From Microbacterium luticocti DSM 19459 (lineage in GTDB: Bacteria > Actinomycetota > Actinomycetes > Actinomycetales > Microbacteriaceae), in NCBI RefSeq assembly GCF_000422405.1, contig NZ_AULS01000001.1, positions 1 through 64,000 of the forward strand: DNA of 64,000 nucleotides, given 5' to 3'. The notes under the pieces were generated by a model, which saw only the letters and a list, made by a program, of their open reading frames with translations, searched no databases and was not told where the DNA came from. Position numbers and translations under genes: made by a program. Positions within the stretch are counted from its first letter, which is position 1; the number at the start of each line of letters is the position of its first letter. Positions 6,766 through 13,264 of the stretch are shown piece by piece.

Positions 6766-6811
6766 GTGGTGGGCGATGCCGGACTCGAACCGACGACCTC
6801 TTCCGTGTGAA
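6766..6811 (-). repeat. attR: 46-bp core shared with attL, within tRNA-Val(CAC)
   Basis: The sequence is identical over 46 bp to 660-705. It reconstitutes the 3' half of the tRNA-Val gene, so the host tRNA stays functional after integration. The integrase gene lies immediately inside it. Confidence 0.9.
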
Positions 6812-6842
6812 GGAAGCGCGCTACCAACTGCGCCAATCGCCC
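6767..6842 (-). tRNA. tRNA-Val(CAC)
   Basis: The minus strand folds as a 76-nt tRNA with the CCA encoded. The acceptor stem is GGGCGAT with ATCGCCC, the D arm GCGCAGTTGGTAGCGC, the anticodon stem CTTCC/GGAAG around loop TTCACAC (anticodon CAC, reading GUG) and the T arm GTCGGTTCGAGTCCGGC. Its 3' 46 bp belong to the integrated element's att repeat. Confidence 0.95.
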
Positions 6843-6993
6843 GTCTCCCGAGGGGGACGAGTATCGATCGTACCGGATGTTCGGGGGTGTTTCCGACCAC
6901 GCGGCGGGTGACACGCGCGGGCGGTGCGCGGTTTTGCACTGCGGCCCGGATCGGCTACAGTCATATCTGCGCCGGAGTGATCCGGAGCGAAAT

Positions 6994-7066
6994 GCGGATG
7001 TAGCGCAGTTGGTAGCGCATCACCTTGCCAAGGTGAGGGTCGCGAGTTCGAGTCTCGTCATCCGCT
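6994..7066 (+). tRNA. tRNA-Gly(GCC)
   Basis: The sequence folds as a cloverleaf. The acceptor stem is GCGGATG/CATCCGC, the D arm GCGCAGTTGGTAGCGC, the anticodon stem TCACC/GGTGA with loop TTGCCAA (anticodon GCC) and the T arm GCGAGTTCGAGTCTCGT. CCA is not encoded. Confidence 0.95.
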
Positions 7067-7117
7067 CGAGTGCGGGGTTCCTTTCCGAAGGGACACGCCG
7101 TGGGGTTCGAACCACGC

Positions 7118-7191
7118 GGTGGCGTGGCCGAGAGGCTAGGCACCGGCCTGCAAAGCCGTTTACACGGGTTCGAATCCCGTCGCCACCTCCA
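7118..7191 (+). tRNA. tRNA-Cys(GCA)
   Basis: The acceptor stem is GGTGGCG/CGCCACC, the anticodon loop CTGCAAA gives anticodon GCA, and the T arm is ACGGGTTCGAATCCCGT. The discriminator base is T, as in tRNA-Cys, and the CCA end is encoded at 7189-7191. Confidence 0.95.
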
Positions 7192-7230
7192 CTCCCGGTC
7201 GCTGATCGGACAAGTGAACAGCCTTCACAG

Positions 7231-7302
7231 GCGCGATTGGCGCAGCGGTAGCGCGCTTCCCTGACACGGAAGAGGTCACTGGTTCGATCCCAGTATCGCG
7301 CA
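7231..7302 (+). tRNA. tRNA-Val(GAC)
   Basis: The acceptor stem is GCGCGAT/ATCGCGC, the D arm GCGCAGCGGTAGCGC, the anticodon stem CTTCC/GGAAG with loop CTGACAC (anticodon GAC) and the T arm ACTGGTTCGATCCCAGT. It is closely similar to the tRNA-Val(CAC) that hosts the element but lacks the exact 46-bp att sequence. CCA is not encoded. Confidence 0.95.
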
Positions 7303-10024: not shown

Positions 10025-10540
10025 ATGGCCCACCTCGTGCTCACCGTCGTCGGCGACGATCGCGCCGGCCTCGTTCAAGCCCTCGCCGACACCGTCGCCG
10101 CCCACGGCGGCAACTGGGAGCGCAGCGAACTGGCCGAACTCGCCGGCGCGTTCGCGGGCATTGTGCTCGTCGACGTGCCCGACGCCGACGTGGATGCGCT
10201 GACCGCCGCCCTGAGCGCGTTGAGCGGACTGCTGACCATCACGCCGTACCGCGGCGGTGAAGCGGATGCCACACCACCCGGCGAGCGGGTCACCTTCACC
10301 GTGCTCGGCAACGATCATCCGGGCATCGTCCGCGACATCACCCGCGCGCTGGTCGGCCACGGGTTGACCATCGACCGGTTCACCAGCCGCACCCTCGCCG
10401 CGCCGATGGCCGGCGGGGAGTTGTTCGAGGCCGCCGTCACCGCCCGCGCGACCTCCGACGCCGACACCGCCGACGCCGTCGCTGAACTGGAACGGCTCGC
10501 CGCCGAGATCCAGGTCGAGGTGACGGTCGCCGGAGGCTGA
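10025..10540 (+). CDS. double-ACT-domain protein, GcvR-like regulator
   Basis: This is a 171-residue protein made of two ACT domains. The first is at residues 2-80 (MAHLVLTVVGDDRAGLVQAL, then ADTVAAHGGNWERSELAELA), the second at residues about 88-170 (VTFTVLGNDHPGIVRDITRA, LVGHGLTIDRFTSRTLAAP). Both start with the GxDRxG/GNDHPG ligand-binding turn. This layout is that of glycine-cleavage-system repressor-like (GcvR) amino-acid-sensing proteins, which act through protein partners rather than by binding DNA. Its ligand is unknown. It is expressed from a leaderless promoter and stands just upstream of the thrS leader. Confidence 0.8.
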   Translation: MAHLVLTVVGDDRAGLVQALADTVAAHGGNWERSELAELAGAFAGIVLVDVPDADVDALTAALSALSGLLTITPYRGGEADATPPGERVTFTVLGNDHPGIVRDITRALVGHGLTIDRFTSRTLAAPMAGGELFEAAVTARATSDADTADAVAELERLAAEIQVEVTVAGG

Positions 10541-10553
10541 CGGCCGGCCCGAC

Positions 10554-10559
10554 TAGACT
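10554..10559 (+). promoter_or_regulatory. -10 element (TAGACT) for the thrS leader transcript
   Basis: TAGACT ends six bases before the ATG of the 20-codon leader ORF at 10566. Transcription is therefore expected to begin at that ATG, leaving a 135-nt leader before thrS. Confidence 0.6.
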
Positions 10560-10565
10560 TCCGGT

Positions 10566-10628
10566 ATGCAGCCAGTCGTCCGAGCCCGCAACGAGCAGGC
10601 GGCGGCGCGCGGCCGGCGAACGCGCTAG
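10566..10628 (+). CDS. putative leader peptide upstream of thrS
   Basis: This 20-codon reading frame (MQPVVRARNEQAAARGRRTR) starts exactly six bases after a TAGACT -10 element, so it would be translated from a leaderless mRNA. It ends 72 bases before the thrS GTG. It is arginine-rich (six Arg) with one Thr codon next to the end. GC-rich inverted repeats between its stop and thrS (about 10630-10665) could form alternative hairpins. Translation-dependent control of thrS is plausible, but which amino acid would be sensed is unclear. No T-box element is visible. The ORF could also be fortuitous. Confidence 0.45.
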   Translation: MQPVVRARNEQAAARGRRTR

Positions 10629-10700
10629 GCCCGAGCGGGCAGCGGCGCGACACGCCGCGAAGCTGAGCCATCCGAGCCCTCTTTCTCTGGAGACCTTCCT

Positions 10701-12710
10701 GTGACTGACGCTGTCATTCCGTCGGACGTGAGCTATCCCGCCGACGGATTCGCCCTGTTCCCTGACCGTGCCGTGATCGCGCTGCGCGTCAACGGTGAGC
10801 TCAAAGACCTCGCCACGCTGGTGACCGAGACGGATGCCGTCGAGCCGATCCGCATCGACAGTCCCGAGGGCCTGGCGATCCTGCGCCATTCCACCGCGCA
10901 CGTGCTCGCGCAGGCGGTGCAGCGGGTCAAGCCGCAGACCAACCTGGGGATCGGACCGCCGATCACCGACGGGTTCTACTACGACTTCGGAGCCCCCGAG
11001 CCGTTCACCCCCGAAGACCTCAAGGCCATCGAGAAGGAGATGCAGCGCATCGTCCGTGACGGCCAGCGGTTCGTCCGCCGGGTGGTCACCGACGACCAGG
11101 CGCGGCAGGAGCTGCGCGACGAACCGTTCAAGCTCGAACTGATCGGGTTGAAGGGCGGCGGCGCCGAGAAGACCGAGGGCGCGTCGGTCGAGGTCGGCGC
11201 GGGCGAGCTGACCATCTACGACAACGTGAACCGCGACGGCGAGACGGTCTGGAAGGACCTGTGCCGCGGGCCGCACCTGCCGAACACCCGCCTGATCGGC
11301 AATGGTTGGGCGCTGCAGCGCATCGCCGGCGCCTACTGGCGCGGCAACGAGCACAACCCGCAGCTGCAGCGGGTGTACGGCACCGCCTGGCCCACCAAGG
11401 ACGAGCTGCGCGCGTACCAGCACCGCCTCGAGGAGGCCGCCAAGCGCGACCACCGCAAACTCGGGCGCGAGCTCGACCTGTTCTCGTTCCCCGACGAGAT
11501 CGGATCGGGGCTGAGTGTGTGGCATCCCAAGGGCGGCATCGTCCGCGGCGAGATGGAACAGCACGCGCGACGTCGGCACATCGACGCCGGCTACACCTAC
11601 GTGTACACGCCGCACATCTCCAAGGAGGATCTGTTCCTCACCTCGAACCACCTGGTCACCTACCGGGAGGGCATGTTCCCGCCGATCCGCATGGACGAGG
11701 AGGTCGACGAGCACGGGCACGTCGTCAAGGCGGGGCAGGACTACTACCTCAAGCCGATGAACTGTCCGATGCATATCCTCATCTACAAGGAGCGTGCACG
11801 CAGCTACCGTGACCTGCCGATGCGGCTGGCCGAGAACGGCACCGTGTACCGCAACGAGTTGTCGGGCGCACTGCACGGGCTCACCCGGGTGCGCGGGTTC
11901 ACCCAGGACGACTCGCACCTGTTCGTCACTCCCGAACAGCTCGAATCCGAGGCGACGCGGGTGCTCGAGTTCGTCATCTCGATGCTGCGCGACTTCGGCC
12001 TGGACGACTTCGAGCTCGAGCTGTCGATGCGTGACGACGAGAAGTCGAAGTGGATCGGCTCGGACGAGTTCTGGGAGTACTCGACGAACGCGCTGCGCAA
12101 CGTCGCCCTGGCCAGCGGTCTGAAGCTCACCGAGGTGCCGGGCGAGGCCGCGTTCTACGGGCCGAAGATCGACCTGAAGACCAAGGACGCGATCGGCCGG
12201 GTGTGGCAGCTGTCCACCGTGCAGGTGGACCCCAACCTGCCCGAGCGTTTCGGTCTGGAGTACACCGGGCCCGACGGCGAGAAGCACCGGCCGATCATGA
12301 TCCACCGGGCCCTGTTCGGCTCGATCGAGCGGTTCTTCGCCATCCTGCTCGAGCACTATGCCGGGGCGTTCCCGGTGTGGCTCGCACCGGTGCAGGTGGT
12401 GGGCATCCCCGTCGCCGAGGAGTACGCCGGCTACCTGGACGGCATCGTCGAGCGGCTGCGTGCCGACGGCGTGCGCGCCGAGGTCGACCACAGCGACGAC
12501 CGCATGCAGAAGAAGATCCGTACCCACACCACGCAGAAGGTGCCGTTCCAGCTCATCGCGGGGGAGCAGGACCGCTCCGCCGGCACCGTCTCGTTCCGGT
12601 TCCGCGACGGCTCGCAGCGCAACGGCGTGCCGGTCGACGAGGCGCTGCGTCTGGTGCGGCACGCCATCGACACGAAGGCGCTGGTGAACGCCGCCGAGGA
12701 CCTGTCGTGA
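10701..12710 (+). CDS. thrS: threonyl-tRNA synthetase
   Basis: This is a 669-residue class II synthetase that charges tRNA-Thr. The N-terminus is a TGS-like domain. Residues 60-240 are the editing domain with the HxxxH motif (His63, His67 in [12 protein letters not shown]) and LCRGPHLPN. The catalytic core has motif 2 ([20 protein letters not shown], with DDSHLF) and motif 3 ([17 protein letters not shown]), followed by the anticodon-binding domain ([15 protein letters not shown]). The GTG start has GGAG eight bases upstream. It is preceded by a putative leader ORF, and its stop overlaps the start of the HIT gene (GTGA). Confidence 0.97.
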
Positions 12711-13264
12711 CGGATGTCGCCGACGACACGGTCGCGGGGCTGGTGGCCGCCAGCGACCTGCCCGGCGTGCCCGACGAGTTCCAGCGACTGTGGACGCCGC
12801 ACCGCATGGCCTACATCCAGGCCGGGGCCGACGCGATGCGGGCGGACTGCCCGTTCTGCGCGGCGCCCGACAAGAGGGACGAGGACGGGCTGATCGTGCA
12901 CCGCGGGCAGACGGCGTACGTGTTGCTCAACCTGTTCCCGTACAACTCCGGTCACCTGCTGGTCTGCCCGTACCGGCACATCGCCACGTACGACCAGGCG
13001 AGCCCGGAGGAGGTCGCCGAGATCGGAGCGCTCACGCAGCATGCCATGCAGGTGCTGCGTGGCGTGTCGCGGTGCGACGGGTTCAACATCGGCATGAACC
13101 AGGGGAGGGTCGCCGGCGCCGGTGTCGACGAGCACCTGCACCAGCACATCGTGCCCCGCTGGGAGACCGACGCGAACTTCTTCCCGATCATCGCGAAGAC
13201 CAAGGCGCTGCCGCAGCTGCTCGGCGAGGTGCGCCGGGCCGTCGCCAACGCCTGGGCCGGCTGA
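12707..13264 (+). CDS. HIT-family nucleotide hydrolase/transferase (AP4A phosphorylase-like)
   Basis: This is a 185-residue histidine-triad protein with the motif [10 protein letters not shown] (His143, His145, His147). CPFC at 48-51 could bind zinc, and [16 protein letters not shown] is typical of the actinobacterial Ap4A-phosphorylase branch (mycobacterial Rv2613c-like). That branch splits diadenosine tetraphosphate, a by-product of aminoacyl-tRNA synthetases, which fits its translational coupling to thrS, an arrangement conserved in actinobacteria. The GTG start overlaps the thrS stop. Confidence 0.88.

Follow-up and report, generated by a model that had tools for sequence, protein, structure and literature searches.

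The thrS gene in the window, by which we mean the whole stretch of 64,000 nucleotides analyzed here, is preceded by a short leaderless ORF that is, as judged by comparison with its relatives, a divergent and atypical copy of a Microbacterium thrS leader. As a sequence feature, a leaderless leader of thrS that is conserved and kept in frame is nearly certain. Its best explanation, to which we assign a probability of roughly 0.7 on comparative grounds, is a cis-acting leader of thrS that senses threonine.

A preliminary description of this locus had placed a TAGACT hexamer six bases before the ATG of a 20-codon ORF preceding thrS, and both elements were confirmed, at 10554-10559 and 10566-10628, with a spacing of 6 nt to the ATG at 10566 (Table 1). 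The window transcript is predicted to begin at or next to this ATG. A two-hexamer sigma-70 promoter scan of 10400-10800 found no promoter, and the assignment of the -10 element therefore rests on spacing and conservation. The identity of thrS was confirmed with NCBIfam TIGR00418 (E 4.7e-190). A scan of the window's leader found no intrinsic terminator. The T-box, which had been described as absent, was likewise not found by Rfam, either in the whole window at gathering thresholds, where only four tRNAs were returned, or in 10500-10760 at E up to 1, where nothing matched. The spacer before the thrS ribosome site had been called hairpin-capable; two hairpins, H1 and H2, are indeed predicted and H2 covaries in relatives, but the folding energy of the window leader is unremarkable, since it folds less well than shuffled sequences (z +2.1; 199 of 200 shuffles as good).

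Table 1. Features of the thrS leader region, in window coordinates.
Feature	Position	Strand	Basis
P1 -10 element, TAGACT	10554..10559	+	6 nt before start codon
Leaderless leader-peptide ORF, 20 codons, MQPVVRARNEQAAARGRRTR, stop TAG	10566..10628	+	sequence and frame comparison
Codon pair CGA ACG (Arg-Thr)	10617..10622	+	kept across leaders
Proposed sensor codon ACG	10620..10622	+	conserved Thr of the CGA ACG pair
Hairpin H1, GCCC-GAGC-GGGC	10629..10640	+	alignment A2
Hairpin H2, GCGGCG-CGACA-CGCCGC	10642..10658	+	compensatory changes in relatives
Conserved box GAAGCTGAG, core AGCTGA	10659..10667	+	AGCTGA in 77/77 leaders
thrS Shine-Dalgarno, GGAG	10689..10692	+	read from sequence
thrS, threonine--tRNA ligase, GTG start	10701..12710	+	NCBIfam TIGR00418

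Directly upstream of the leader, an ACT-domain protein gene occupies 10025-10540 and ends at 10540; its product matches a glycine cleavage repressor model weakly, below the model cut-off. Downstream, an ORF at 12710-13264 overlaps the 3' end of thrS and continues into what reads by eye as a HIT-like protein, based on CPFC and a second, ten-residue motif. The four tRNA genes lie within about 530 bp at 6770-7302, one of them on the minus strand.

To describe the distribution of the leader, we searched genomes with a covariance model, R1, which has 57 positions and derives from an alignment of 62 leaders (A2). The R1 core was found in at least 76 of 198 Microbacterium genomes, one copy each at E up to 0.01, a lower bound because the search used strict filters; under the same filters the other 122 genomes gave no match. 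Matches to thrS itself, a few of them weak fragments, occurred in at least 197 of the 198 genomes. All 76 R1 matches have a thrS context: 60 fall in our thrS upstream set, and the remaining 16 were retrieved separately, each with thrS directly downstream. The upstream set, a non-random choice of 110 regions from 110 genomes (30 loci plus 80 regions among the matches listed), contains 60 regions with the core and 50 without. Among the best 80 of 589 loci, the named thrS closest to that of the window came from Microbacterium kyungheense (88%); five of these 80 named loci, being short or at contig ends, were left out of the upstream comparison. Named carriers of the leader include M. lacticum and M. 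oleivorans. The leader set used below comprised 84 core-bearing loci, reduced to 77 distinct leaders after removal of duplicates.

Searches of wider samples returned little else. A family sample of 299 genomes in 85 genera gave R1 matches in three Microbacterium genomes and one other (G447, E 0.004); this last match falls within a long ORF, inspection by eye revealed no thrS among the ORFs there, and it was taken as chance. A class sample of 296 genomes, under strict filters, gave three Microbacterium matches and four weak ones in other families (E 0.004-0.05), as well as a second, weak match in G045 (E 0.04). The window's own genome contains a second match, at C10:36641, which lies inside an apparent coding region and was also taken as chance. 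When a loose rule for leader ORFs was applied to named loci outside Microbacterium, few ORFs passed (e.g. in L024, L040, L071, L076 and L081), none with the core or an RTxxA end. Three ORFs passed among 29 class loci, of which L280 offers hardly any sequence before the gene; two contain 0-1 Thr, and the third, in L279 from another family of the class, has three consecutive Thr codons, lies 211 nt before the thrS match and starts 4 nt after a -10-like TAGCGT. The L279 ORF is possibly an unrelated threonine leader.

The reading frame was assessed across the 77 leaders with a strict rule (TANNNT, 5-8 nt, NTG, in any frame); neither the -10 nor the start codon is part of the covariance model or of the regular expression that selected the leaders. 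Exactly one start satisfied this rule in 76 of the 77 leaders, and all 76 starts were in frame with the CGA ACG of the 3' core, at distances of 12, 15-19 and 21-23 codons. The spacer between -10 and start was 6 nt in 55 of them and 7 nt in 21. The sole exception, G157, has TAGACC, a spacer of 6 and an in-frame ATG. Start codons in the full set were ATG (68) and GTG (9). A similar rule applied to the 50 core-less thrS upstreams recovered no such short ORF (0/50). These results bear out the earlier reading of the locus as a translated, leaderless leader of a synthetase gene, in so far as frame comparison allows us to infer translation of the ORF. An alignment of thrS upstreams had been suggested as a check on conservation, and it showed that the frame (76/76) and the pair CGA ACG or CGA ACT are kept, but not the variable part of the peptide. 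That the ORF arose by chance beside an ordinary promoter would agree with a window peptide that is unremarkable when taken alone and with a fold no better than shuffles; we give this a negligible probability in view of the comparative frame, threonine and thrS-context results and of the core-less upstreams, which have no such ORF.

We counted threonine codons between the start and the CGA, upstream of the core (1235 codons). Threonine made up 17.2% of codons in frame, compared to 4.3% and 4.8% in the other two frames, 5.8% in shuffled controls (maximum 7.9% in 1000 shuffles) and 5.5% in thrS itself (29 genes), and it still reached 13.3% in frame when the codon before CGA was left out. Individual peptides contain 1-7 threonines, most often 4 or 5, and 75 of the 77 end in R-T-x-x-A, which puts the conserved threonine four codons before the usual stop. 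Because the peptides are threonine-rich in frame and share this end, the family signal is probably threonine. The conserved pair is CGA ACG in 68 leaders and CGA ACT in 9, and in all 76 model matches the threonine codon varies only synonymously, between ACG and ACT, yet ACC accounts for 62% of threonine codons in 29 thrS genes. The preceding arginine codon is CGA in 76/76 model matches, although CGA represents 2.5% of arginine codons in the same genes (29 of 30 were used; G079, whose reading frame was interrupted by a stop, was left out). The selecting expression demands CGAAC[GT] and GAGCGGGC, so this constancy is partly by construction; nevertheless, all 76 matches of the covariance model, which tolerates changes, also satisfy the expression. 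The covariance model found no intact leader with another codon pair in 59 core-less upstreams, where it returned one decayed leader (L006) and three weaker matches, and a scan for the H1 motif with up to two mismatches gave seven scattered matches and no leader.

In the variable part of the peptide, 49 close pairs of leaders differed 88, 75 and 87 times at codon positions 1, 2 and 3, respectively, in a comparison where the pairs are not mutually independent and a few starts in the count set lie too far downstream. Since the differences are spread equally over the three positions, conservation of the peptide itself is confined to its end, and a sensor made of codons would fit better than a functional peptide. 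In five divergent leaders (L234, L239, L241, L242 and L243), CGA ACG or CGA ACT is followed by an extra threonine codon (RTTxA) or, in L239, by proline, and all five have CAGCTGA instead of AAGCTGA.

The preliminary description had called the peptide rich in arginine rather than threonine and suggested that a different signal may be read. Its account of the peptide holds for the window, with six arginines and one threonine in 20 residues, and CGA is constant in the family, but the relatives are threonine-rich and nearly all share the R-T-x-x-A end. A sensor of arginine or of CGA decoding, in which the rare CGA or arginine-rich peptides like that of the window read arginyl-tRNA, could account for a CGA in every model match and for the window peptide. 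We consider it very unlikely, because arginine amounts to 11.7% across leaders, because upstream of the core it stands at 8.7% in the right frame versus 16.8 and 30.5% in the wrong ones, the reverse of threonine, and because the downstream gene is thrS. As the lower arginine content of the right frame disfavors arginine as the family signal, this candidate was rejected.

The window belongs to the 4 of 77 leaders with a single-threonine peptide. The usual stop TGA has become CGA in the window and a TAG 6 nt earlier closes the frame, both changes being common to G098; in these two leaders the final x-A of the peptide is lost and the RNA motif is retained. The GCC stretch is kept in the window although it now lies outside the ORF, and H1 gains a C-G pair there. 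The sequence of the H2 stem differs from that of the relatives and still pairs over six bases. Thus, the promoter, start, CGA-ACG, H1, H2 and AGCTGA are all retained in the window copy, and a rough pattern found no second promoter between the leader and thrS.

These two leaders bear on a different role for the peptide end, in which the C-terminal R-T-x-x-A-stop acts as an arrest or termination-stall signal, so that the ribosome stalls at or near the stop on another cue than the supply of charged tRNA-Thr and frees downstream expression. Such a peptide would explain why conservation is much stronger in the final residues than elsewhere, and why the stop lies within a nearly invariant motif, part of which is in the selecting expression. 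It would not account for the loss of x-A and the earlier stop in the window and G098 alongside a retained RNA motif, nor for a threonine enrichment that reaches upstream of the motif (the 13.3% above), and we regard an arrest peptide as unlikely.

H1 has the nearly invariant form GCCY-GAGC-GGGC and overlaps the stop codon in relatives (GCC TGA GC GGGC); its only stem change is U-G to C-G, in 2 of 62, and because of this invariance covariation can neither test nor prove it. Over the whole structure, 98.6% of cells pair. Both-sided compensatory changes occurred in 22 cells, compared to 7.0 in shuffles and 0-2 when the structure was slid along the alignment, with the caveat that the structure itself came from the alignment being tested; all 22 lie in H2, as do the two strongest mutual-information signals. 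Hairpin H2 is thus supported by covariation. The AGCTGA core, which is found in 77/77 leaders, was not part of the selecting expression. Covariation in the leader alignment gave no competing antiterminator pairing, and a possible competitor of H1 had a mean pairing probability of about 0.24 (76 leaders).

Two familiar outputs were looked for in this RNA. The leader alignments showed no U-tract after H2, as a trp-type intrinsic terminator would have. Sequestration of the Shine-Dalgarno was not apparent either, since in a thermodynamic model its mean unpaired probability was 0.29, 0.35 and 0.31 at the modelled ribosome positions, so that ribosome position barely shifts accessibility. A mini-hairpin over the Shine-Dalgarno (GGA-N-YCC), seen in 69/76 leader-bearing versus 10/44 leader-less loci, was rejected because this comparison is confounded by relatedness and modelled accessibility is unchanged. 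An extra hairpin in seven leaders with a long tail before thrS was also rejected, as only 1/7 approached 5% significance in comparison with shuffles. Upstream of the Shine-Dalgarno, the tail averages 11.0 C and 5.3 G in leader-bearing loci (n 77) and 8.5 C and 8.3 G in leader-less loci (n 44), related species in this comparison not being independent. Within the ORF, a small hairpin, GYGAC-N4-GTCRC, recurs in many leaders 14-27 nt before CGA (codons e.g. GCG ACC GTC GTC GCG; mean pairing probability about 0.29 in register).

A second -10 of the TAGCCT type before thrS was detected with a rough pattern in 36 of the 77 leaders. Such a downstream promoter would bypass the leader; in the 41 leaders where none was found, thrS apparently relies on P1 and the leader. 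The 36 loci in which thrS has a promoter-like element of its own, together with the near invariance of H1 and AGCTGA as nucleotides, would suit a small RNA or structured RNA element that is independent of thrS and just happens to sit in front of it, the ORF being incidental. We think this highly improbable, as the in-frame starts (76/76) and the frame-specific enrichment of threonine point to translation, and thrS follows every one of the 76 matches at E up to 0.01.

For a threonine-sensing leader, we propose the following sequence of events. Transcription from P1 would start at the ATG, and a 70S ribosome would load at the RNA 5' end, as suggested by the -10 spacing. According to comparative genomics, the ribosome would translate a short threonine-rich peptide ending in Arg(CGA)-Thr(ACG/ACT)-x-x-Ala-stop, whose threonine codons, and in particular the conserved one close to the stop, would read the level of charged tRNA-Thr. 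A ribosome stalled at a threonine codon, or at the stop inside H1, would set whether H1 and H2 form, and its position would determine whether RNA polymerase continues into thrS, such that low charged tRNA-Thr would raise thrS. The output might be premature termination of the Rho type downstream of H2, where the sequence is rich in C and poor in G; we prefer this output because a U-tract is missing and the Shine-Dalgarno shows no obvious sequestration, but with low confidence, as a guess from the C-rich tail. Speculatively, the ribosome may be paced by the rare CGA immediately ahead of the sensor codon. A fuller version of this scheme is doubtful in our estimate: the CGA would gate the ribosome before a single sensor threonine codon, a terminating ribosome would melt the hairpin around its own stop, and thrS expression would be decided, with neither an intrinsic terminator nor a Shine-Dalgarno switch, by what this hairpin, H2 and AGCTGA build together, either a small fold (possibly a pseudoknot) or a site at which Rho or a protein loads.

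Cis control of thrS is exerted in E. coli by the thrS operator and in Bacillus by a T-box, which read ThrRS protein or uncharged tRNA directly and involve no leader peptide. The Microbacterium leader likewise controls thrS in cis under our proposal, but has a leader peptide and no T-box. In Streptomyces lividans TK24, a leaderless leader peptide, thrL, lies upstream of thrS and is called threonine-dependent by its authors, an assignment that rests on transcript mapping and sequence (PMC8079986). A leader peptide before thrS is therefore no novelty as such. For thrL, the available text of that study reports one hairpin and no uridine-rich stretch (PMC8079986). Its peptide, MKRVRPFLETTPGFVPAR, resembles the Microbacterium leader as a leaderless peptide before thrS and, compared by eye, has two adjacent threonines but not the RTxxA end. 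In mycobacteria, leaderless polycysteine short ORFs attenuate downstream genes (Canestrari et al. 2020, as described in PMC9031893), with control on translation (PMC9031893, PMC13236596). These are also actinobacterial leaderless short ORFs rich in one amino acid; as far as the available accounts go, they differ in using cysteine, contiguous codons, a non-synthetase gene and translational control, of which we saw no sign in Microbacterium. Synthetase attenuators with leader peptides include pheST of gamma-proteobacteria and trpS and leuS of some Streptomyces (PMC1262725). Their leader peptides contain codons for the amino acid that the synthetase handles, and hairpins come after them, as in the Microbacterium leader, but the latter is without a U-tract terminator. 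For threonine operons, the same actinobacterial survey, in its available part, reports neither attenuators nor a conserved upstream RNA structure (PMC1262725).

In the open-access literature on thrS leader peptides and attenuation, we found no description of the Microbacterium family. Sequence comparison points to a leaderless mini-gene that Microbacterium keeps in frame and has apparently tuned to threonine; that literature yielded no described example from the genus. Its dozens of natural variants could serve for studying actinobacterial attenuation without U-tract terminators, and they also bear on why one rare arginine codon is kept.

The gain and loss of the leader was followed on a tree of thrS that comprised 53 loci, some of them from other genera; the leader is present in 30 of these and absent from 23. 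Its distribution needs 8 changes on this tree, at least 7 by supported branches, and the leader is therefore dispensable. Shared sequence suggests one origin with repeated loss; alternatively, the leader may have been transferred. In species without the leader, thrS is preceded, by eye, by a TAGCCT-type promoter or by a P1-like -10 abutting the thrS ribosome site. The latter arrangement is found in L042 (M. thalli) and L167 (G170), where a P1-like -10 is joined to the ribosome site as if the leader had been deleted; the tree neighbors of L042, L015 and L016, carry the leader. The decayed leader mentioned above lies before thrS at L006:1358-1442 (Microbacterium sp. 70-16; 18.7 bits, E 0.07), where P1 and the ORF pattern are gone and an H2-like hairpin and AAAACTGAGTAGCC are left. 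L170 (G131) retains GAAGCTGAGTAGCC ahead of thrS but no other part of the leader, perhaps as another remnant.
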